Assembly (NCBI GenBank): GCA_903904755.1
Contig: CAIVDV010000013.1
Span: 62,001 to 126,000, forward strand
Origin: an uncultured Acidobacteriaceae bacterium
GTDB taxonomy: Bacteria; Acidobacteriota; Terriglobia; Terriglobales; Acidobacteriaceae
Direction: 5' to 3'
Length of the DNA: 64,000 nt
Shown here: in pieces, positions 2,934 through 63,266 of the stretch
How positions within the stretch are numbered: position 1 is the first letter of the stretch
Layout: the number at the start of each line of letters is the position of its first letter
The notes under the pieces: generated by a model
What the model was told of the DNA's origin: nothing
The model's input: only the letters and a program-made list of their open reading frames with translations
Database searches by the model: none
Position numbers and translations under genes: made by a program

Positions 2934-4097
2934 ATGCCTGACCTTTGCAACCCCAGCTTCCTCCTTCCCGCCGCCCTCGCCGTCCCCGGCGACGACCACG
3001 ACCCCCTCGCCGCGCGCCAATATCCTGAGCCGCCCCATCCCTACCGCGCACCCTTCTCCCGCGACTACTCCCGCATCCTCCACGCCCGCGCCTTCCGCCG
3101 CCTCGCCGGCAAAACCCAGGTATTCACCCGCCGCCCCGCGGAAAGCGATCACGTCCGCAGCCGCCTCACCCACACCCTTGAAGTTGCTCAGGTCGCCCGC
3201 ACCACCGCCCAGGTCCTCAGCCTCAACCCCCAACTCGCGGAAACCCTCGCCCTCGTCCACGACATCGGCCACCCGCCCTTCGGCCATGCCGGCGAAAAAG
3301 CCCTCGACGAAGCCCTCCGCGCCCACGGCCTCGGCTTTGACCACAATCTCCACGCCCTCCGCATCGTCACCGGCTTTGAAGACCGCTACCCCGGCTTCCC
3401 CGGCCTCAACCTCACCCTCGGCGTCCGCGAGGGCATCATCAAGCACTCCCGCGATTACACCGAGTCCGCTCATCCCGAGCTCGCCAGCTACTTCCTCGCC
3501 CAGTTCCCACCCCTCGAAGCCCAGCTCATCGACATCGTCGACGAAATCGCATACCTCACCGCCGACATGGAAGACGGCCTCGAATCCGAAATCCTTCACC
3601 TGCCCGAGCTCATCGCCGAGGTCGACCTCTTCGCCGAGTTCTACTCCGCCGTCCACGCCCAGTACCCTGCCGCCCCTGCCCGCCTCCTCACCTACGAGGC
3701 CCTCAAGCGCATGATGAACGCCCTCGTCACCGACCTCATGCAAACCGTCGTCTCAGAAGTCCAATCCCTCGGCATCCAATCCCTCGCCGACGTCCGCCAG
3801 GCCCCCCATCGCCTCGCCCGCCTCAGCCACGGAATGGAAGAGCGCCGCCGCCTCGCCAAAGCCTTCCTCTTCCGCCGCCTCTACGAGTCCCCCGCCATGC
3901 TTGCCGAGCACGAACACGCCCACCAGGTCATCTCCGCCCTCTTCCGCGCCATGCTCGCCAACCCCAAAATGCTGCCCCCAGACCACCAGGCCCTCGCCGC
4001 CACCGACGGCCTCCCCCGCACCATCGCCGACTACCTCGCCGGCATGACCGACTCCTACATCGAACAAGCCTGGCAACGCCTCCGCCTCGCCCACTGA
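2934..4097 (+). CDS. dgt: dGTPase-like HD-domain triphosphohydrolase
   Basis: Predicted to hydrolyse dNTPs to the deoxynucleoside and triphosphate. The 387-residue protein begins with the conserved RAPFSRDYSRILHARAFRRL segment and KTQVF, followed by RSRLTHTLEVAQ and the metal-binding HDIGHPPFGHAGE motif. Later come the Asp-containing DIVDEIAYLTADMEDGL and a C-terminal helical region, as in deoxyguanosinetriphosphate triphosphohydrolase-like proteins. Start at ATG 2934 is supported by GGGGAG 8 nt upstream; an upstream ATG at 2901 has no such site. It is transcribed divergently from the lipoprotein gene. Nucleotide specificity cannot be read from the sequence. Confidence 0.9.
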   Translation: MPDLCNPSFLLPAALAVPGDDHDPLAARQYPEPPHPYRAPFSRDYSRILHARAFRRLAGKTQVFTRRPAESDHVRSRLTHTLEVAQVARTTAQVLSLNPQLAETLALVHDIGHPPFGHAGEKALDEALRAHGLGFDHNLHALRIVTGFEDRYPGFPGLNLTLGVREGIIKHSRDYTESAHPELASYFLAQFPPLEAQLIDIVDEIAYLTADMEDGLESEILHLPELIAEVDLFAEFYSAVHAQYPAAPARLLTYEALKRMMNALVTDLMQTVVSEVQSLGIQSLADVRQAPHRLARLSHGMEERRRLAKAFLFRRLYESPAMLAEHEHAHQVISALFRAMLANPKMLPPDHQALAATDGLPRTIADYLAGMTDSYIEQAWQRLRLAH

Positions 4098-4125
4098 CCC
4101 ACCTACTTGCCCCCATAAACACCAC

Positions 4126-4149
4126 AAGCCGCCCCAAAGGACGGCTTGC
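4126..4149 (-). terminator. Possible terminator between convergent dgt and asd-like genes
   Basis: An inverted repeat (AAGCCG-CCC / GGACGGCTT, one mismatch, loop of about 4-5 nt) sits between the convergent genes. On the - strand it is followed by a T/G-rich tract (GTGGTGTTT), weakly consistent with termination of the psd-pssA-asd operon. Confidence 0.3.
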
Positions 4150-4252
4150 GCTTGAAACCTGCGTTCCTCATTTTTCTTTGGAGCCAGTCCACCACCTCTG
4201 CGAACTCAACAACTCAAACTGATCTCTGATCTCTGACCGCTGATCTCTGCCC

Positions 4253-5284
4253 CTACTGCACCTGCCCCGCCGGCCTCAATCTCCGCAAATCCAGCGCGCA
4301 ATCCACCGCATTCAGCGCTGCCAGCCGCAGATTATCGCACGCCGCATAAATCCAGAACCGGCTCGTCTCCCCGCTTGTCCGCACAACCGGCGGCTCCGGC
4401 TTCAGCCACAGCAGCACATCGTTCTGCCCCACCGCGGCCACATTCGACGGCGAATCCGTCTCCTCCAGCACCAGATCCATGTGCTCGCCGCCCAGCGCGT
4501 CTTCCAGCAGTGGCAGCGCCACCGCCCGGTCCAACTCCACACACAGGCTCATCGTTATCCCGTGGAAAATCGGCGCCTGCAGCAACTGCAAGCGCAACTC
4601 CGGCAAATGCTTCCCGCCCAGCGCCTCATAGTGCCGCCGAATCCGCCGCTCAAACACCCCCAGCTGCACCGGTGCGCCCTCCCCCAGGTTCGCCAGCACG
4701 TTGAACGCCGCCTGGCTCTCAAACACCGCCTGCGGCATATTCTGGAAGCTCAGCAAACTCACCGTCTGCTGGTGCAGCTCATCCAGCCCGGCCTTGCCAA
4801 ACTCGCTCGCCGGCTGCATCACCGTCGCCGACAAAAACCGAACCTCGGCCAGCTCCGCAATCTTTCCCACAATCAGTGCCAGGCTCAGCGCCGCAGCTCC
4901 GGCAGGAACCACAGCCTTCGTCAGCAAATCCGGCGACTTCTCGCCTTCCACCACCCACGGGCTCCGCACCAGCACTCCCGGCTCCTCGTCCAGCGCCCCG
5001 CTCAGGTCCAGCACCGTCGAGCCGGCCGCCAGCGCCTTCCGCCAGTACCGTTCCGTCAGTTCCTTCCGCCCCGTGAAAAACGTAAAATCCACGCCCTCAA
5101 AGGAGTCGTCGCTGATTGCCTGCACCACCGTCACTTCATCGCCAATGTGGTCAAGCTGCCCCTGGTTCTCAGCCTCTTCCAGCAGCACGAAGTTCGCCCC
5201 CGCCAGCGAAGACTCCGTCAGCGCATCCTTCAATTCCCTGCCAATCAGGCTCGTTGCCCCTGCCAGGGCGATCTTATAGCTCAT
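4253..5284 (-). CDS. USG-1-like aspartate-semialdehyde dehydrogenase homologue lacking the catalytic Cys
   Basis: 343 residues with the Asd fold: the N-terminal NAD(P)-binding loop GATSLIGREL, the VLDLSGALDE segment, and a C-terminal dimerisation/substrate domain (HYEALGG, PIFHGITMSL). In true Asd the nucleophilic Cys lies in an NPNCST-type motif. The corresponding stretch here is VPAGAAALSL, with no Cys, which resembles USG-1-type paralogues. Dehydrogenase activity is therefore doubtful. It is the last gene of psd-pssA-asd and overlaps the end of pssA by 11 bp, so it is co-transcribed with phospholipid synthesis. The start ATG at 5284 begins MSYKIALAGA. Family assignment is firm; function is unknown. 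Confidence 0.8.
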   Translation of the reverse strand: MSYKIALAGATSLIGRELKDALTESSLAGANFVLLEEAENQGQLDHIGDEVTVVQAISDDSFEGVDFTFFTGRKELTERYWRKALAAGSTVLDLSGALDEEPGVLVRSPWVVEGEKSPDLLTKAVVPAGAAALSLALIVGKIAELAEVRFLSATVMQPASEFGKAGLDELHQQTVSLLSFQNMPQAVFESQAAFNVLANLGEGAPVQLGVFERRIRRHYEALGGKHLPELRLQLLQAPIFHGITMSLCVELDRAVALPLLEDALGGEHMDLVLEETDSPSNVAAVGQNDVLLWLKPEPPVVRTSGETSRFWIYAACDNLRLAALNAVDCALDLRRLRPAGQVQ

Positions 5285-6233
5285 GGTTTCCTGTCTGATT
5301 TGTTCGCGCGTCCAGTTCTCCCGGCTCGCCTTCCGCTTCGGCCTCAAACTGCAACTCCCGGTGCCGGATCTCTTCATCCCGCCGGAATAGCCGCCTGCGC
5401 CGCTGCCAACTGTACGCCGCCCGCGCCCATATCCCTGAAAACATGTACACCAGCCCAATCAGGAACCACGTCGCCCGTGACACCGTCGGCCACAGCAGCA
5501 GGAACAGCACAATCGCAATCACCGCCAGCAACTGAATCGGCTGCCGGTTGCCCAAATTAATCTCCTTGCCACTCCAGAACCGCCACTTGCTCACCATCAG
5601 GAATGCCAGCGTCGCCACCAGCACCAGCCACACAATCGCCAGCCACCAGTATGAGTTCGGTATCCCGTAGAACAAATGCACCGTCGAGGCGACCAGCCCA
5701 GCCGCCGCCGGAATCGGCATCCCTACAAAGTACTTCGCGCCCTTCCGTCCAGGATTTTCCGGCTCCGGATCATGGCTGATATTGAACCGCGCCAGCCGGC
5801 TCACCCCGCACAGCAGATACAGGAAGCAGATAAACGTCCCAATCTGCAGCAGGTGCGGCGCAATATTCGGGTTCGCCCCAAAATCCAGGAAGTGCAGCCC
5901 CCAAATCCACGCCAGCAGCGCCGGAGCCATTCCGAAGGTAATCGAATCCGCCAGCGAATCCAGCTCCCGCCCAAAGTCGGAAACCGTATTCGTCATCCGC
6001 GCAATCCGCCCATCCAGCGCATCAAACGGAATCGCAAAGCAAATCGCAATCGCCGCATGGTCCAGGTGCACACTCGGGTCGGCATACGGCGTCAATCCCG
6101 CCGTCACCGCATCAAAAATCTGCGTAATCGCGTAAAAGCCCAGCCCTATCCCGGCCGAGGTAAACAGGCTCGGCAGCAGAAACATCCCCCGCCGCCGTCG
6201 CGCCGCGCGCAACCTTGCCTGCGCTGGGTCCAT
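5274..6233 (-). CDS. pssA: CDP-diacylglycerol-serine O-phosphatidyltransferase
   Basis: An integral membrane enzyme that transfers a phosphatidyl group from CDP-diacylglycerol to L-serine, the first step towards phosphatidylethanolamine. The 319-residue protein carries the CDP-alcohol phosphotransferase signature DALDGRIAR...GRELDSLAD (pattern D-x2-DG-x2-AR-x8-G-x3-D-x3-D) after the first membrane segment. Several further hydrophobic segments follow, including FICFLYLLCGVSRLARFN and LLAVIAIVLFLLLW. The C-terminal tail is highly charged and cytosolic. Start at ATG 6233 (MDPAQARLR) lies 26 bp after psd. The order psd-pssA is the usual PE biosynthesis pair. Confidence 0.93.
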   Translation of the reverse strand: MDPAQARLRAARRRRGMFLLPSLFTSAGIGLGFYAITQIFDAVTAGLTPYADPSVHLDHAAIAICFAIPFDALDGRIARMTNTVSDFGRELDSLADSITFGMAPALLAWIWGLHFLDFGANPNIAPHLLQIGTFICFLYLLCGVSRLARFNISHDPEPENPGRKGAKYFVGMPIPAAAGLVASTVHLFYGIPNSYWWLAIVWLVLVATLAFLMVSKWRFWSGKEINLGNRQPIQLLAVIAIVLFLLLWPTVSRATWFLIGLVYMFSGIWARAAYSWQRRRRLFRRDEEIRHRELQFEAEAEGEPGELDARTNQTGNHEL

Positions 6234-8585: not shown

Positions 8586-9925
8586 CACCCCTCCACCTCT
8601 TCCACCAGTTCCAGCAACACGCCGCCGGCCGCACTCGGATGCACAAACACATACCGGTGCCCGCCCGCGCCCACCCGCACACGCTCATTTACCAGCCGCA
8701 CGCCCTTTTCCTGCAAATCCTTCACAACTCCATCCAAACCCCGCACTCGCAGCGCCACATGATGCAGCCCCGGCCCGCGCTTCGCCAAAAATCTCCCCAC
8801 CGCCGACTCCGCCACCGTCGCCTCCAGCAGCTCAATCCGGCTCTCGCCCAACCCCACCATCGCCACCCGCACCTTCTCCGCCGCAATCTCTTCCGGCTCA
8901 CCCACCTGCGCCCCCAGCAGCCGATACACCCCCGCCGCCTCCGTAATCGACCCCACCGCAATCCCCAAATGATCCAAAACCGGCCCCGACGGCAACTCAG
9001 GTATCCGGGCAATCTCCCTGGGCTTTCCTGCACCCTTCTCCGCGACAAGCATCTGCACCCGGGCGGTAGGCCGGGGCTTTAGCCCCGGCAATCCCGACTC
9101 TTTCCCTTGAAATGCTGGGGCTTTAGCCCCTGAGGGAAACCCCACCAGCACCCCCGCCAACTCCGCCACCCCCTCCCCCGTCGTCGCCACGGTTCGCAGC
9201 ACCGGCCGCTCCCGCGTCCCCGCGCCCAGCCCCAATACCCCCCGCATCTCCTGCTCCAGCCGCTCCACACCCTCCCGGTCCGCCTTGTTCAGCACATACA
9301 CATCGCCAATCTCCAGCACCCCGGCCTTCAGCGCCTGCACCCCATCGCCCATCCCCGGCACCAGCACCACGGCCACCACATCCGCCAGCCCCACCACCTC
9401 AATCTCTCCCTGCCCCACCCCGGTCGTCTCCACCAGCAGCACATCCCGCCCGCTCGCCTCAATCACCGTCAGCACATCCTCGGTCGCGCGCGCCAGCCCG
9501 CCCAGGTGCCCCCGGGTCGCCATCGACCGCATATACGCGCCACCCTCCTGCACCCGAATCCGGTCCCCCAGCACTGCTCCACCCGTCCGCGCGCTCGACG
9601 GGTCCACCGCCACAATCCCCACCCGCCGTCCGCGCCCGGCCAGCTCCCGGCTCAGCCCGTCCACCAGCGTGCTCTTCCCCGCTCCCGCCGGCCCGGTAAT
9701 CCCAATCCGCAGTGCTCTTGGCCCCTCGCTCACCGCCGCCCGGCACAGCCGCAGCAGCTCCGCCGCCTCCGCCGCGCCATCCTCCACCACGCTCACCGTC
9801 CGGCCCAGCGCCCGTGCGTCTCCCGCCCGCAACCCGGCAAACAGCCTTTCCGCCGCGCTCTCCTGCCCGTCCTGTCCAGCCCCGCTCATATTCCAACCAG
9901 CATATTCCAACCCACCCATACCCAT
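8585..9925 (-). CDS. MeaB-type GTPase fused to methylmalonyl-CoA epimerase
   Basis: 446 residues. Residues about 24-260 are a MeaB/ArgK G-protein, the chaperone that protects and reloads adenosylcobalamin methylmalonyl-CoA mutase: Walker A GPAGAGKST (78-86), DPSSARTGGAVLGDR, ETTGVGQGE (166-174) and NKAD (213-216). Residues about 315-446 are a VOC-fold epimerase that interconverts R- and S-methylmalonyl-CoA, with likely metal ligands in LDHLGIAV (His319), GLHHVAL (His388/389) and LLEL (Glu439). The usual C-terminal dimerisation arm of MeaB appears lost. Residues 262-289 are encoded by a pair of palindromic repeats. Start is uncertain: ATG 9925 and ATG 9889 (MSGAGQDG) are both possible. No mutase gene is in the window. 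Confidence 0.88.
   Translation of the reverse strand: MGMGGLEYAGWNMSGAGQDGQESAAERLFAGLRAGDARALGRTVSVVEDGAAEAAELLRLCRAAVSEGPRALRIGITGPAGAGKSTLVDGLSRELAGRGRRVGIVAVDPSSARTGGAVLGDRIRVQEGGAYMRSMATRGHLGGLARATEDVLTVIEASGRDVLLVETTGVGQGEIEVVGLADVVAVVLVPGMGDGVQALKAGVLEIGDVYVLNKADREGVERLEQEMRGVLGLGAGTRERPVLRTVATTGEGVAELAGVLVGFPSGAKAPAFQGKESGLPGLKPRPTARVQMLVAEKGAGKPREIARIPELPSGPVLDHLGIAVGSITEAAGVYRLLGAQVGEPEEIAAEKVRVAMVGLGESRIELLEATVAESAVGRFLAKRGPGLHHVALRVRGLDGVVKDLQEKGVRLVNERVRVGAGGHRYVFVHPSAAGGVLLELVEEVEG
9070..9137. repeat. Two GGGGCTTTAGCCCC palindromes inside the fusion-gene linker
   Basis: Palindromes at 9070-9089 (GCCGGGGCTTTAGCCCCGGC) and 9117-9130 (GGGGCTTTAGCCCC) are separated by 27 bp. The second is followed by TGAGGGA. 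The block GGGCTTNAGCCCCTGAGGGA recurs in an intergenic spacer at 45977-45996, so this is a member of a dispersed intergenic repeat family that here is translated in frame as residues about 262-289 of the fusion protein. Confidence 0.8.
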
Positions 9926-46055: not shown

Positions 46056-46514
46056 TTACGGCTCCCGCACCCAGTACTGCGTCCGCCCCAGCATCGGCAC
46101 CCCCACATACCCCCGCACCTTCAGCCGCGCCCCGTTCTCCACCACCGTCATGATGCACCGATAGGTGCTCCCCGTATGCGGGTCCAGAATCATCCCACTC
46201 CCCCACTCAGCCCCGCTCGCCGTCATATCCCACAGCATCCGCAACCCCAAAATCGGCTTGTCATGCTGCTCCCCCTCACACTTCCGGCAAATCTCCTCCG
46301 GATTCGTCGGGTCGGGGTCCAGAATCTTCTCCACCTTCCCGTACAGCTTCCCGTTCTCCAGGTACAGCACCACAATCGACTTCGCCTTGCCCGTCGCATC
46401 ATCCATGGTGCGCCACCGGCCCACCGGCGAACTTCCCCCCTGAGCCCATCCCGCCTGCGCCAAAACCATCCCCAGCACGGCCACCGCCACCATCACAACC
46501 CTGCGAAATCGCAT
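46056..46514 (-). CDS. Exported DUF2147-family protein
   Basis: 152 residues. Signal peptide [22 protein letters not shown], then the DUF2147 domain: [98 protein letters not shown]. It is a small beta-barrel-like periplasmic protein of unknown function. ATG 46514 is preferred because the signal peptide follows directly. Divergent from pckG. Confidence 0.85.
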
Positions 46515-46697
46515 GAATTCCCCAATCTGCAGCCGCACTCCTCAGAGTCCCGGCCAGGCAGTTGCAGAATAGCCCCCCACTCCCCCACCTGGAAAGCACA
46601 ACGGGTGATTGCGGTCACTTTGGCTCACGCCGGGGTCCCTGTTAGGGTTGAGGGCGAGAGCCAAGCGCGGAGCGCACCAGGCACGGAGACTCCCTAC

Positions 46698-48518
46698 ATG
46701 ACCACCCCCAAACGCCAGACTCCCCCCACCACAAACAAGCACCTCATCCGCTGGGTCGAGAAGATGGCCGAGCTCTGTCAGCCCGACTCCATCCACTGGG
46801 TCGACGGCTCCGATGCTGAAAACGAGATCCTCTGCCAAAAGCTCGTCGCTGCCGGAACCTTCCTCAAGCTCAATCAGGAGCTCTGGCCCGGCTGCTACTA
46901 CGCCCGCTCCTCTCCCAACGACGTCGCCCGCGTGGAAGACCGCACCTTCATCTGCTCCCACTCGAAAGACAACGCCGGCCCCACCAACAACTGGGAAGAG
47001 CCCGTCCAGATGCGCCGCAAGATGAAGCAGAAGTTCCGCGGCTCCATGCGCGGCCGCACCATGTACGTCCTGGCATTCTCCATGGGCCCCGTCGGCTCCC
47101 CCATGTCCCAAATCGGCGTCCAGCTCACAGATTCCGCCTACGTCGTCGTCTCCATGCGCATCATGGCCCGCATCGGCCTGCCCGTCTTTGCAGAAATCGA
47201 CCGCGACCTCAAGCGCGTCGTCCCCTGCATGCACACCGTCGGCGCGCCCCTCGCCCCCGGCCAGGCCGATGTCCCCTGGCCCTGCAACGACGAGAAATAC
47301 ATCGTCCACTTCCCTGAAACCCGCGAAATCTGGTCCTACGGCTCCGGCTACGGCGGCAACGCCCTGCTCGGCAAAAAGTGCTTCGCCCTCCGCATCGCTT
47401 CCAACATCGCCCGTGACGAGGGCTGGATGGCCGAGCACATGCTCATCCTCGGCGTCGAAGACCCCCACGGCGAAAAAACCTACGTCGCCGCCGCCTTCCC
47501 CTCCGCCTGCGGCAAAACCAACTTCGCCATGCTCATCCCGCCCGCCGGCTTCGACGGCTGGCGCGTCTGGACCGTCGGCGACGACATCGCATGGATTAAA
47601 CCCGACGCCACCGGTCAGCTCCGCGCCATCAACCCTGAGGCCGGCTTCTTCGGCGTCGCCCCCGGCACCGGCGCCTCTACAAATCCCAACGCCATGGCCG
47701 CCCTCGCCCGCAACACCATCTTCACCAACGTCGCCCTCACCCCCGAAGGCGGCGTCTGGTGGGAAGGCATGACCGACACCCCTCCCGCCGAGTGCCTCGA
47801 CTGGCGCGGCGAGCGCTGGACCCCGGAAATCGGCAAGGAAACCGGCCGCCCCGCCGCTCACCCCAACGGCCGCTTCACCGCCCCCGCCCGCCAGTGCCCT
47901 TCCATCGATCCCGACTGGGAAAACCCCGCCGGCGTCCCCATCTCCGCCTTCATCTTTGGCGGCCGCCGCGCCCACACCATGCCCCTCGTCTACCAGTCCT
48001 TCAACTGGTCCAGCGGCGTCTACATCGGCGCCACCGTCGGCTCTGAAACCACCGCCGCCGCCGGCGGAGCCATCGGCAAAGTCCGCCGCGACCCCATGGC
48101 TATGCTCCCCTTCTGCGGCTACCACATGGCCGACTACTTCCGCCACTGGATCAAAATGCAGCGCCAGCTCGACACCACCCCGCGCATCTTCCACGTCAAC
48201 TGGTTCCGCAAAGACAAGCACGGCAAATTCCTCTGGCCCGGCTTCAGCCAGAACATGCGCGTCCTCCGCTGGATCGTCGACCGCGTCCACGGCCGCGCCC
48301 TCGGCAAGGAAACCCCCATCGGCTGGACCCCCCGCTACCAGGACATCCACTGGGAAGGCCTCCCCTTCGCCGAAAAGACCTTCGAGGAACTACAGGAAGT
48401 CGACCGCGCCCACTGGAAGCGCGAAGTCATGGGCCACGAGGAACTCTTCCTCGACCTACACGACCACCTCCCCCCCGAAATGATCTACGAACGCGAACTC
48501 CTCATCTGCCGCCTCTAA
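46698..48518 (+). CDS. pckG: Phosphoenolpyruvate carboxykinase (GTP)
   Basis: 606 residues, typical of GTP-dependent PEPCK. Interconverts oxaloacetate and PEP in gluconeogenesis. Seen: [56 protein letters not shown], the P-loop [13 protein letters not shown] with the reactive Cys, [27 protein letters not shown] and [17 protein letters not shown] 46698 ([10 protein letters not shown]) is chosen; the longer frame upstream overlaps DUF2147 on the opposite strand. No clear ribosome binding site is visible within 10 nt. Confidence 0.96.
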
Positions 48519-48540
48519 CCCACTCATCCATCCTTTCCGG

Positions 48541-48573
48541 GTGCCCCCGGTCTCGCTTCTGAGACCGGGGGCT
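48541..48573. repeat. GGTGCCCC palindrome, copy B (possible pckG terminator)
   Basis: GCCCCCGGTCTC-GCTTCT-GAGACCGGGGGC is a perfect 12-bp stem 24 nt after the pckG stop. There is no T-run. It could act as a 3' stabilising or terminator hairpin. Confidence 0.65.
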
Positions 48574-48695: not shown

Positions 48696-48925
48696 ACCCC
48701 CTCACCCCACGGAATTCCCGAGAATTTTCAGAAAGGGTCAACCTGAGCAAGCGAAGCGCGTCGAAGGACCTGCTTGTCCTCCATCCGCGCATCACTGCCG
48801 GTTGCCCCACGCCCGCCTCGCCTTTGTTTTTGCTCTTGCCTTTCTTGTTGTCATCCCCGAAGGGGATCTGCTTCTCGCTCCCGCGTTTCGAGACTCCCCA
48901 CCACTCCCGGACCATGAAGCCACAC

Positions 48926-49026
48926 TCCCGCGCCGCAGGCGCAGCGTCGGTTAGCCCAGCGATTCATCGCTGGGTACGCACGCCCCTCATCGAGCCTAGG
49001 AGTCCCGTAGGGACGGCGCCCAGGGC
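48926..49026. repeat. Composite palindromic repeat, copy 1
   Basis: Block 1 reads CGCCGCAGGCGCAGCGT-GGTTAGCCCAG with hairpin CAGCGATTCATCGCTG. After a variable spacer, block 2 reads GGAGTCCCGTAGGGACGGCGCCC with a GTCCC/GGGAC stem. The same two blocks in the same order and spacing occur at 62501-62596, with differences mainly in loops and the spacer. Confidence 0.85.
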
Positions 49027-49245
49027 CGAACACCCCACCCCTCACCCACCACGCCCCCCGCTCACCCCCGAACTTGCCGGGGGCCACCGGTCCCTCGCAC
49101 TTGGGGACCGGAGAACCCACACCTTCCAATCCGGGTGAGTTCCCCCCCAATTCGCCCTTAATCCCAATCCCGTGCTATCGTTTCCTCACCAATTCATTCC
49201 GCCATTGTGTGTCTTCCATCGGTGTAACCCGTGAGGATATCGAAT

Positions 49246-50136
49246 ATGAACGCCAACCTGCGTGTCTTCCTGCTCTTTTCCATAGCCTTCACCCTGGCTG
49301 TCTCTGGCCTCCAACTTCATGCCGCGGACCCCGACAAAAAGCAGCCGCCACCCATCGCATGGACCAAAGGCCCCGGCACCGTCAAACTCGGCAGCGTCGC
49401 AGAAATGCAACTCCCCCAGGGCTTCCTCTTCGCCGATGGCGACGGCGCCCGCAAGTACATGGAACTCATCCACAATCCCACCTCGGGTGAGGAACTGGGC
49501 ATCATCGTTCCCGCCTCTGAGAAGGAATCCTGGTTCGTCCTCTTTGAGTTCAACGAGGTCGGCTTGGTCAAAGACGACGACAAAGGCTCCCTCGACTCCG
49601 CAGCCATCCTCAAAAACATCCAGGACGGCACCGAAAGCGCCAACGAGGAGCGCAAAAAGCACGGCTGGGAAGCCTTTCACGTCAACGGCTGGTACACCCC
49701 CCCCTTCTACGACTCGGTCACCAACAACCTCACCTGGGCCACCAACGGCTCCTCTGACAACGACAAAGATCCCACCGTGAATTACTCCGTCCGCCTCCTC
49801 GGCCGGCGCGGCACCATGAACGTCGATCTCGTCCTCGACCCCGGAGACATGGCCAGAGTCGAGCCCCAGTTCAAAGACCTCATGAAGTCCTTCCAGTTCA
49901 GCCACGGCAGCCGCTACGCCGACTTCGTCCAGGGCGACAAGCTCGCCGGCTATGGCCTCACGGCCCTCGTCGCCGGCGGTGCTACCGCTGTCGCCATCAA
50001 GACCGGCCTCTTGGCAAAATTCTGGAAACTCATCGTCGTCGGCTTCGCCGCTGCCGCAGGAGCCATCAAGAAATGGTGGCGCAAGCTCACCGGCAAACCC
50101 GACCCCAATCAGCCGCCGCAGAGCCTCAGTGAGTAA
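49246..50136 (+). CDS. DUF2167-family exported membrane protein
   Basis: 296 residues. Signal peptide (RVFLLFSIAFTLAVSGLQLHA), then the DUF2167 domain: WTKGPGTVKLGSVAEMQLPQGFLFADGDGARKYME, WFVLFEFNEVGLVKDDDK, KHGWEAFHVNGWYTPPFYDSVTNNLTWA, RLLGRRGTMNVDLV. Near the C-terminus is a hydrophobic stretch AGYGLTALVAGGATAVAIKTGLLAKFWKLIVVGFAAAAGAIKKWWRKL. Function of the family is unknown. ATG 49246 has GAGGA upstream. A small membrane protein follows 49 bp downstream. Confidence 0.87.
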   Translation: MNANLRVFLLFSIAFTLAVSGLQLHAADPDKKQPPPIAWTKGPGTVKLGSVAEMQLPQGFLFADGDGARKYMELIHNPTSGEELGIIVPASEKESWFVLFEFNEVGLVKDDDKGSLDSAAILKNIQDGTESANEERKKHGWEAFHVNGWYTPPFYDSVTNNLTWATNGSSDNDKDPTVNYSVRLLGRRGTMNVDLVLDPGDMARVEPQFKDLMKSFQFSHGSRYADFVQGDKLAGYGLTALVAGGATAVAIKTGLLAKFWKLIVVGFAAAAGAIKKWWRKLTGKPDPNQPPQSLSE

Positions 50137-61686: not shown

Positions 61687-62472
61687 TTACCGGGTTTTTG
61701 CGGGTTTTACCCCTCCTGAAAGCCCAAAAATCAAGGGTTTCCGGGGCTTCAGGCTCTCCACAATCGGCCCATTCAGCAGACCCACCAACGGCGCCGCCAG
61801 CCGAAAATGCCGCACGATGTTTTCCGCCAGCCCCGGCTCCAGCGCCGCCTCCGCCGGCAACGTTCGAGACACACCCCACTGCCGGCACCGGATCAAATCC
61901 ATCCCCGCATGCTCCGCCGGGAACCCCGTCGGCGGCCGCGTCAGCGCATTCCCCTCGAACAGCTCAAAGTGCTTCCGCAGCGCCTCCCCCTCCAGCTCCG
62001 CCCGCAACTCCCCGTGATGCTCCAGCAGCCAGTGACGTATCGCCGCCAACTGCTCCTTCTCCGGCATATACGCCCCCGCCGCCAGAATCACCTCCGTCGG
62101 CGAAATATGAAAGTAGAACCCAGCCCCCGAGGTCTTCTCCAGCGCCCCATGCGCCCACCACGCCGCCACATGCTCCTTGTATGGCCGCTTGTCGTTCGAG
62201 AAGCGCGTATCCCGGTAAATCCTGAAAAACGACTTCTCCGCCGGCCGCACATGCTCCGGCGCAAACTCCAGCATCGCGTTCGTCACATGCCGGATAATCC
62301 CCAGCATCGGCTGCTTCACCTCCGCCTCATACGCCGCCTTGTTCGCCAGGAACCACTCCCGCGCCTCCACCGGATCCCTCCGGTTGGCACGAACCAGCGC
62401 ACGCAGATACGTCATCGCAGCCGGCCGCAAATGCAGCTGGCCCTCGGGGGAAGTTTTCACACTTTTCGCCAT
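61687..62472 (-). CDS. DUF2461-family protein
   Basis: 261 residues. Matches the DUF2461/TIGR02453 family: TYLRALVRANRRDPVEAREWFLANKAAYE, KSFFRIYRDTRFSNDKRPYKEHVAAWW, GAGFYFHISPTEVILAAGAYMPEKEQLAAIR and FELFEGNALTRPPTGFPAEHAGMDLIRCRQWGVSR. A cytosolic protein of unknown function. ATG 62472 begins MAKSVKTSPE. A dispersed repeat lies directly upstream. Confidence 0.87.
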   Translation of the reverse strand: MAKSVKTSPEGQLHLRPAAMTYLRALVRANRRDPVEAREWFLANKAAYEAEVKQPMLGIIRHVTNAMLEFAPEHVRPAEKSFFRIYRDTRFSNDKRPYKEHVAAWWAHGALEKTSGAGFYFHISPTEVILAAGAYMPEKEQLAAIRHWLLEHHGELRAELEGEALRKHFELFEGNALTRPPTGFPAEHAGMDLIRCRQWGVSRTLPAEAALEPGLAENIVRHFRLAAPLVGLLNGPIVESLKPRKPLIFGLSGGVKPAKTR

Positions 62473-62500: not shown

Positions 62501-62596
62501 GTCCCGCGCCGCAGGCGCAGCGTAGGTTAGCCCAGTGCGTCAGCGCTGGGTAAGCGCAACCACCCCTGCCCCGGAGTCCCGGAGGGACAGCGCCCG
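62501..62596. repeat. Composite palindromic repeat, copy 2
   Basis: The same two blocks as at 48926-49026: CGCCGCAGGCGCAGCGT-GGTTAGCCCAG with hairpin CCCAGTGCGTCAGCGCTGGG, then GGAGTCCCGGAGGGACAGCGCCC. It fills most of the 200-bp gap between DUF2461 and ruvA. Confidence 0.85.
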
Positions 62597-62672: not shown

Positions 62673-63266
62673 CTACCGAATCACCTTCAGCGCCGCCCGG
62701 AACAAATCATCAAAGTTCTCCGCCACCGCCGGCTCCTTCGTCACCGCATGTTCCACAGCCTTCTCCGCCGCCAGCCGCTGATACCCCAAATTCGTCAGCG
62801 CGCTCAGCACATCCTCCACCGCCGCGCCCAGCACCTGCGCCACCGCCACCGGAGCCGCCGCAAAGTCATCCAGCTTGTCCTTCAGCTCCAGCACCAGCCG
62901 CTCCGCCAGCTTCTTCCCCACTCCCGGAATCCGCACCAGTTGCGCATGGTCCTGCGACCGTATCGCCGCCACCGCCCGCTCTGCGGACAGCCCGCTCAGC
63001 AGCTTGATCGCCAGCTTCGGCCCCACCCCGCTCACCGTAATCAGCCGCTCAAACAGACGCTTCTCGTCCCGGTCCAGGAAGCCGAACAGCGCAATCTGGT
63101 CCTCGGAAACCTGCGTATGCACAAACAGCGCCGCCTCCTGGCCCACCGCGCCCAGCGCCGTAAATGTCGGCACAGAAATGGTCACGTCATACCCCACCCC
63201 GCCGCACTCCAATATGACCTGGCCGGGCTGTTTGTCGATGAGCTTGCCGCGCAGATGTGCAATCAC
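62673..63266 (-). CDS. ruvA: Holliday junction branch-migration protein RuvA
   Basis: 197 residues. Binds the four-way junction as a tetramer and loads RuvB. Seen: N-terminal OB fold (IAHLRGKLIDKQPGQVILECGGVGYDV), two helix-hairpin-helix motifs (TVSGVGPKLAIKLLSGL and RIPGVGKKLAERLVLELKDKL) and the C-terminal RuvB-binding domain VEDVLSALTNLGYQRLAAEKAVEHAV. The start is GTG 63266 (VIAHLRGKL). ruvB and ruvC are not adjacent. The long frame upstream to 63926 is an artefact of high GC. Confidence 0.95.
   Translation of the reverse strand: MIAHLRGKLIDKQPGQVILECGGVGYDVTISVPTFTALGAVGQEAALFVHTQVSEDQIALFGFLDRDEKRLFERLITVSGVGPKLAIKLLSGLSAERAVAAIRSQDHAQLVRIPGVGKKLAERLVLELKDKLDDFAAAPVAVAQVLGAAVEDVLSALTNLGYQRLAAEKAVEHAVTKEPAVAENFDDLFRAALKVIR

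Follow-up and report, generated by a model that had tools for sequence, protein, structure and literature searches.

The window, a stretch of 64,000 nucleotides from an uncultured Acidobacteriaceae bacterium (GCA_903904755.1, contig CAIVDV010000013.1, positions 62,001 to 126,000), contains two copies of a unit of three hairpins (H1-H2-H3) and about 92 nt, which also occurs beside a transposase gene, tnpA, on another contig of the genome. Copy 1 is located at 48927..49019 (plus strand, in the H1-H2-H3 orientation seen upstream of tnpA), downstream of the phosphoenolpyruvate carboxykinase (PEPCK) gene (46176-48518) and upstream of a DUF2167 gene (49231-50136). Copy 2 is located at 62503..62593 (plus strand), in the 200-bp gap from a DUF2461 gene (61687-62472, minus strand) to ruvA (3' end at 62673, minus strand). 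The genes flanking both copies are supported by Pfam. Our covariance model (R1), in which both copies are included, scored them with 67.0 bits (E 2.5e-13) and 63.7 bits (E 1.4e-12).

The architecture was the same in both copies: H1 (5-bp stem, 3-nt loop), a 12-nt linker ending in TTAG, H2 (8-bp stem, 4-nt loop), a spacer of 25–27 nt and H3 (5-bp stem, 3-nt loop). In copy 1, H1 is found at 48930..48942 (GCA triloop), TTAG at 48951..48954, H2 at 48955..48974 (TTCA loop) and H3 at 49002..49014 (GTA triloop), all on the plus strand, and all three stems showed covariation. The corresponding plus-strand positions of copy 2 are 62506..62518, 62527..62530, 62531..62550 and 62576..62588. Its H3 has a GGA triloop, and its H2 has one T-G wobble, which is a C-A mismatch on the minus strand. 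TTAG directly precedes H2 at its 5' foot, where IS200 elements and repetitive extragenic palindromes (REPs) have their guide tetranucleotide, and may have the same role here. A sequence-only reading of the window had reported two near-identical blocks in the same order and spacing, forming an element of two hairpins. The blocks were present as described (copy 2 against copy 1: E = 4.4e-18, BLAST within the genome). The two-hairpin composition was replaced after the full-length copies had been compared: there are three hairpins per unit, as the first shared block contains both H1 (GCGCC-GCA-GGCGC) and H2 (CCCAGCG...). The reported stem changes on both sides were also real: copy 1 has A-T and copy 2 has C-G as the innermost pair of H2, and T-G replaces C-G at one pair.

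While both of the distant copies first noticed are genuine, their total number in the genome is far higher. BLAST gave 21 matches (query included, some partial or cut by a contig end), and the structural model gave 20 units. The full-length pattern was fitted by 18 copies, 14 of them away from tnpA. These 14 dispersed copies had a sharp start at CCC before H1 and a sharp end at about GGYGCC after H3, and the information content outside CCC...GGYGCC was near background. Over the 18 full-length copies, H2 showed one G-C to A-T change (17:1) and one G-C to C-G change (17:1), and the innermost pair was C-G in 10, A-T in 4, T-A in 3 and unpaired in 1. Compensatory types were present at three H2 pairs within the genome, in copies that had been picked by sequence. 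Hence, further copies, covariation and precise boundaries, on which the sequence-only reading had made the element depend, were all found.

The genome has one tnpA of TnpAY1 subclass 1.2, located on contig 15 between purB and the gene of a UbiX-like flavoprotein. Four units lie within ~350 bp of it, two on each side and all in the same orientation. The product has 144 residues and is an HuH Y1 transposase (Pfam PF01797 Y1_Tnp, 3.8e-22; NCBIfam NF033573, 63 bits against a cut-off of 55) with a profile match to solved TnpA structures, ISHp608 included (E ~1e-14). It contains NHLH, WQ and YIQNQQQHH, matching the motifs that the excerpted text of Quentin et al. 2018 (PMC6006769) lists for subclass 1.2. 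By its Y---Q--HH motif, it belongs to class 1 and not to the class 2 TnpA_REP proteins (Y--NP). When GTDB genomes were scanned with an alignment of TnpA, 589 relatives were confirmed, and the best 80 were used as the 80 subclass-1.2 loci. The nearest TnpA matches also point to the Acidobacteriaceae as the family of this genome. Among these homologues, Y---Q--HH was found in 78, HuH in 79 and WQ in all 80. Two overlapping small open reading frames between the UbiX-like gene and tnpA (1191-1867 of locus L011) resemble a VapB-VapC-type toxin–antitoxin pair by eye.

The model R1 was built from 72 units (alignment A2), and a unit was called at E≤0.001. Of the 72 rows, 3 came from this genome and 69 from the 80 GTDB units passing a geometry filter (11 passing units were excluded by hand); the 80 had been drawn from 107 units scoring ≥17 in a structure-only search. 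The link to the transposase subclass was examined in 41 genomes, i.e. this genome and its relatives, from which both test and control loci were taken. The 20 test loci were those with a match E≤1.3e-19 among 30 loci, the other 10 being excluded as fragments or weak matches; 4 further matches of genome G021 at this level had no locus and stood outside the 20. The 21 controls came from 31 loci of Y1 transposases, of which 10 were excluded, 9 being subclass 1.2 by motif and 1 a fragment of it (L193).

Units were present at all 20 test loci, and none of the 21 controls with another Y1 transposase had one (Fisher p 3.7e-12). They were found on both sides of tnpA in 17 loci, and the flanking units were inverted in 15 of these. 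The best control scores were E 0.016 (L178) and 0.062 (L026), and 9 of the 21 controls had readable HuH and Y motifs (one IS200 type, eight Y--NP). Of the 20 test loci, only that of this genome shared sequence with the source loci of R1 in a comparison for near-identity. Counted by genome, all 10 with a subclass-1.2 tnpA (match E <1e-15) had units, as did 6 of the 31 without it (p 7e-6). In the 20 loci for which A2 includes both ends, the variable H2 stem was shared by the two ends of a locus (identity 0.92, compared to 0.50 across different loci). Unit distance tracked TnpA distance (Mantel r 0.628, p 0.0001, n 49).

The association extended far beyond the relatives of this genome. The structure-only finder used no sequence motif, searched 200-bp flanks and permitted one mismatch in H2; with strict pairing it missed the closest Acidobacteriaceae, the H2 mismatch being the cause. 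It found units in 107 of 160 flanks and in 14 of 1600 dinucleotide-shuffled flanks, with both flanks positive in 46 of the 80 loci and one or both positive in 61. Chance similarity as the source of the repeats was dropped, being excluded by these counts together with the genome BLAST and the Rfam scores given below. The 107 units had a median linker of 12, an H2 stem of 8 with a loop of 4, a median spacer of 22 and a distance from H3 to tnpA of 3 to 115 bp (median 18). With R1, units were found in 77 of the 80 loci, in 76 within ~110 bp of tnpA (by eye); in L158, the sole match lay 365 bp away. L141, L152 and L156 gave no R1 match at E≤0.001, although L141 passes the finder with an odd geometry. 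As 49 of the 80 loci gave units to R1 and match by construction, the other 31 form the independent set, and 28 of them had units. One locus, L122, is the same DNA as the tested locus L075.

The unit-bearing loci spanned about eleven phyla. By record title, the taxa included Acidobacteria, Planctomycetota, Verrucomicrobia, Lentisphaeria, Kiritimatiellota, Chloroflexi, Magasanikbacteria, Deltaproteobacteria (Desulfococcaceae, Geobacteraceae), Nitrotoga, Calditrichaceae and Bacteroidales/Prevotellaceae. Across A2, 97.0% of cells were paired compared to 74.0% in shuffles, and double-change cells numbered 274 compared to 68. All three stems covaried, with a two-sided change in some unit at 17 of 18 pairs, and pairing fell to 35–48% when the partner columns were slid by 1 to 3. 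In the excerpted text of Quentin et al. 2018 (PMC6006769), subclass 1.2 is entered as 'REP: no' with a low genomic copy number. The units in 77 of 80 loci contradict the former, which is an observation of that publication and not one of the motifs defining the subclass, while the single copy in this genome agrees with the latter.

In one Desulfococcaceae bacterium (HSG8, locus L107), tnpA lies inside long arrays of alternating hairpins (2495-2938 and 3531-5598 of the locus). Upstream of the gene, a unit of 71 bp is repeated ~6 times, and downstream of it a unit of 69 bp ~30 times; each H2 hairpin is separated from the next by a single hairpin of the H1/H3 type. This suggests that H1 and H3 are interchangeable and that tandem amplification of units is possible.

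A part of the unit is already known as a candidate RNA. Both window copies matched Rfam RF01687 (Acido-Lenti-1) on the minus strand, at 48929..48974 and 62505..62550, with 41.7 and 42.4 bits against a gathering score of 37. The match covered all 46 model positions and consists of H2, linker and H1 on the opposite strand, H3 lying outside. RF01687 matches above gathering were also found at 10 of 20 diverse subclass-1.2 loci scanned. The unit might accordingly be read as a structured small RNA (sRNA) or mRNA element (Rfam type 'Gene; sRNA'), with RNA hairpins serving, for example, in processing or stability at gene ends and the proximity to tnpA reflecting self-regulation. In addition to Rfam membership and the position of both window copies between Pfam-supported genes, this is favoured by Table 1 of Weinberg 2010, which rates Acido-Lenti-1 'y' (probably) for RNA and 'n' for cis-regulatory in the portion cited here, and by a regulatory role proposed in the excerpted text of a 2026 Tannerella paper.

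The strand signals pointed the other way. On the H1-H3 strand, the triloops of H1 and H3 had the form GNA in 59 of 74 and 48 of 56 cases, and the reverse complement TNC was found in 0 (87 units). C-GNA-G triloops are unusually stable in DNA. G-T changes exceeded A-C changes (22 vs 11, p 0.08), a weak preference for the same strand, which is opposite to that of Rfam. Moreover, the Rfam match leaves out H3, the units to the left and right of tnpA mostly have opposite orientations, which prevents one transcript from containing both in the sense used by Rfam, and the unit was missing in relatives at the four dispersed sites tested (see the following paragraph). Minimum-energy folds of whole units lacked the three hairpins in some cases, and the z-scores (−3.3, −3.2, −2.1 and −0.2) varied by strand and copy, meaning that thermodynamics alone decides nothing. 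As the units track the gene of a single-strand DNA transposase and the GNA triloops lie opposite to the Rfam strand, the evidence points to the DNA level rather than the RNA level, and we regard a structured RNA as an improbable explanation. The sequence-only reading had left the choice between a mobile unit and a structured RNA. The RNA half is matched by an Rfam class for part of the unit, but the DNA level is favoured; the mobile half is supported by the many sharp-edged copies, the unshared positions at the four tested sites and the cognate TnpA flanked by units.

Orthologous sites were scanned with R1 at E≤0.01 for four dispersed copies and for the purB-ubiX site. No match was found in any of the 32 orthologous loci. 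At the site of copy 2, seven relatives held both the DUF2461 and the ruvA genes, and none of these loci had an R1 match; the gap was short in G010, G011, G013 and G014, and contained 847–1218 bp of other DNA in G001, G002 and G004. At the site of another dispersed copy (L010), five relatives were matched on both sides without a unit. The L022 site was matched on one side in G002, G011, G013 and G014, and at the site of copy 1 only the PEPCK side was matched, in 11 loci; no unit was found in any of them. With L009 as the query, no sequence was matched across the site of its unit. A gene-linked regulatory element was considered as well, and the four tested sites gave it no support. By tblastn, remnants of tnpA were absent from the loci of all 14 dispersed copies (lowest E 0.14, a chance match).

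The position of tnpA was mostly shared. It was found by purB and/or ubiX in seven of the nine homologues that are ≥64% identical (those of this genome, G001, G002 and L088-L091). These seven loci had ~69–83% mutual DNA identity and hence did not come from the same strain. In G013 and G014, purB and ubiX are spaced by ~56 bp, with no tnpA match. Repeats that move and a transposase that mostly stays are the pattern of a REPtron, in which a HuH gene that is single-copy and mostly fixed has hairpin units on its flanks, with many dispersed copies of these units besides.

An ordinary autonomous IS200-like insertion sequence (IS) would account for the same loci differently: TnpA and its inverted three-hairpin ends would move together, and the dispersed units would be relics of dead copies. 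The inverted flanks (15 of 17 two-sided loci), the closeness of H3 to the gene in the 107 units, a near-identical TnpA pair in G021 and tnpA genes at other places in L092 and L093 fit such an element. The single-copy tnpA, its common place by purB/ubiX and the at least 14 full-length dispersed units, with loci lacking a tnpA remnant, do not. In G021, a 2.4-Mb genome (L257-L264) with 12 TnpA matches, the eight TnpAs compared represented seven lineages with 38–56% identity. In PLSDB, 375 records matched some Y1 protein, and among the matches listed only the two best are possible subclass 1.2; they had 36% identity to TnpA, were both >600 kb and were assigned by match level. A plasmid-borne IS was thus unsupported by the PLSDB matches listed. 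Multiple near-identical full-length copies, a trait of IS200/IS605 elements, were not seen: there was one copy here and one possible pair in G021. IS200/IS605 (subclass 1.1) elements resemble our loci in their homologous HuH-Y1 transposase and in the hairpins near both ends; they differ in that here the ends are inverted and multi-hairpin, the gene is single-copy and its place is common to most close homologues. An autonomous IS is therefore doubtful, in our view about as improbable as the RNA explanation.

TIRtrons would be a prior partial sighting of the system rather than a different mechanism. They are tyrosine-transposase genes with long, partly self-complementary terminal inverted repeats (TIRs). 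In the sections cited here, Di Nocera et al. 2013 (PMC3733652) describe them, including those of Acidobacteria, with Koribacter ORF1552 and its dispersed TIR family. The phylum, the tyrosine transposase, the 'double palindromic' inverted and self-complementary flanks and the dispersed repeat family are thus shared. However, the motif GGGGWSAS reported there differs from the unit consensus, and the excerpted text of Quentin 2018 (PMC6006769) equates TIRYTs probably with subclass 2.1 and not with 1.2. Acido-Lenti-1 is not named in PMC3733652. We set TIRtrons apart by their text description, and they may overlap with some of the Acidobacteria loci. That they explain the unit is very unlikely.

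Taken together, the element is probably a REP-like, non-autonomous unit of three DNA hairpins that serves as substrate of the single-copy subclass-1.2 TnpA and has been spread in trans. The units, their covariation and sharp ends, the subclass-specific association, the mostly shared position of tnpA and the lack of the tested dispersed copies at orthologous sites were observed directly. By analogy with IS608 and TnpA_REP, the H1-H2-H3 strand would fold on transiently single-stranded DNA, and the folded hairpins would be bound by TnpA. The cut by the active-site tyrosine would be guided by the four conserved bases ending in AG that precede H2, and the unit would be excised and joined elsewhere. 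In this way, tnpA would remain at a site that it owes largely to descent, and its product would distribute the copies in trans. Immediately 5' of H2, 70 of 72 units have a tetranucleotide ending in AG, which takes the form NTAG in 56 and GTAG in 10. According to the excerpted text of PMC8266576, IS200/IS605 elements and REPs have their guide or recognition motif in the tetranucleotide that precedes the palindrome on its 5' side, and NTAG may correspond to it.

The unit shares with REP/REPtron systems (TnpA_REP, RAYT, REPIN) the AG-ending tetranucleotide at the hairpin foot as well as the single-copy, mostly fixed gene and the dispersed copies. The differences are a class 1 TnpA here instead of class 2, a three-hairpin unit of ~92 nt and a foot that is mostly ATAG or TTAG and not GT[AG]G. 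With GTAG in only 10 of 72 units, the unit is REP-like but not a canonical GTAG REP; a canonical GTAG or CGTC REP was ruled out by foot sequence and transposase class. With TnpAY1 subclass 1.2 in the excerpted text of PMC6006769, the system shares the Y---Q--HH, HuH and WQ motifs, a length of ~144–150 residues and, in this genome, the single copy; the flanking hairpin units and the many more phyla are additional here. RF01687 corresponds to the unit over its whole 46-position model, and differs in lacking H3, in reading the opposite strand and in being classed as sRNA.

Several observations weigh against an explanation by a resident transposase acting in trans. The units flanking tnpA are direct and not inverted in this genome and in G002. 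Among the controls, 12 of 21 had no open frame in which HuH and Y motifs occur together; these may be decayed genes. Six of the 31 genomes without a full subclass-1.2 tnpA had units nevertheless; one of them (G023) has a 55-residue fragment, and the 99% complete genome G018 (L265, L266) has 62 units and no subclass-1.2 tnpA match. Accordingly, units persist or move without tnpA, and those of G018 are an orphaned repeat population. The Mantel correlation could be obtained from shared descent alone. The H2 foot is usually ATAG or TTAG instead of the GTAG of REPs. Two of the four dispersed sites were matched on both sides and two on one side only, and empty sites were read between species, with intergenic DNA too diverged for an exact insertion point. 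In L092 and L093, two of the nine closest homologues, tnpA was not by purB/ubiX in the DNA compared, meaning that it changed place at least sometimes. The two near-identical TnpA copies of G021 (99%, both at contig ends) make a recent duplication of tnpA possible there. Finally, the pairing percentage of A2 is inflated since units were picked partly by their hairpins; the shuffle test and the held-out R1 test are independent of this choice.

The repeat was already known as a candidate RNA. In the literature searched, with most subscription journals outside it, we found no paper linking Acido-Lenti-1 to a transposase, and the papers naming it mention no cognate transposase in their excerpted text. 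More generally, Acido-Lenti-1 probably does not represent an RNA family; it would be the DNA substrate of an additional REPtron lineage that spans phyla. Its subclass-1.2 TnpAs would each co-evolve with a three-hairpin unit (NTAG foot, C-GNA-G triloops) spread in trans, with long alternating-hairpin arrays in some bacteria. If this holds true, an orphan class of HuH enzymes gains its substrate, and a candidate RNA family, annotated as non-coding RNA and cited as a possible regulator near proteases, becomes mobile DNA. The REPtron principle of a domesticated transposase with hairpins spread in trans would then reach class 1 transposases and about eleven phyla. The definition of the units and of their cognate proteins is precise enough to allow cleavage to be assayed directly.

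Other repeats were also found in the window. A weak R1 match (E 0.004) at 9047-9137 contains two GGGGCTTTAGCCCC hairpins and is possibly a decayed unit or a different family. Immediately left of copy 1, at 48816-48877, there is a different dispersed repeat of ~45–60 bp with CATCCCCGAAGGGGATCTGCT, which had many matches in genomes of the same genus (79–96% identity). Two more dispersed repeats downstream of the PEPCK gene (48522-48570 and 48731-48785) were matched elsewhere in the genome and in some relatives. The intergenic region behind the PEPCK gene is a mosaic of repeat families.
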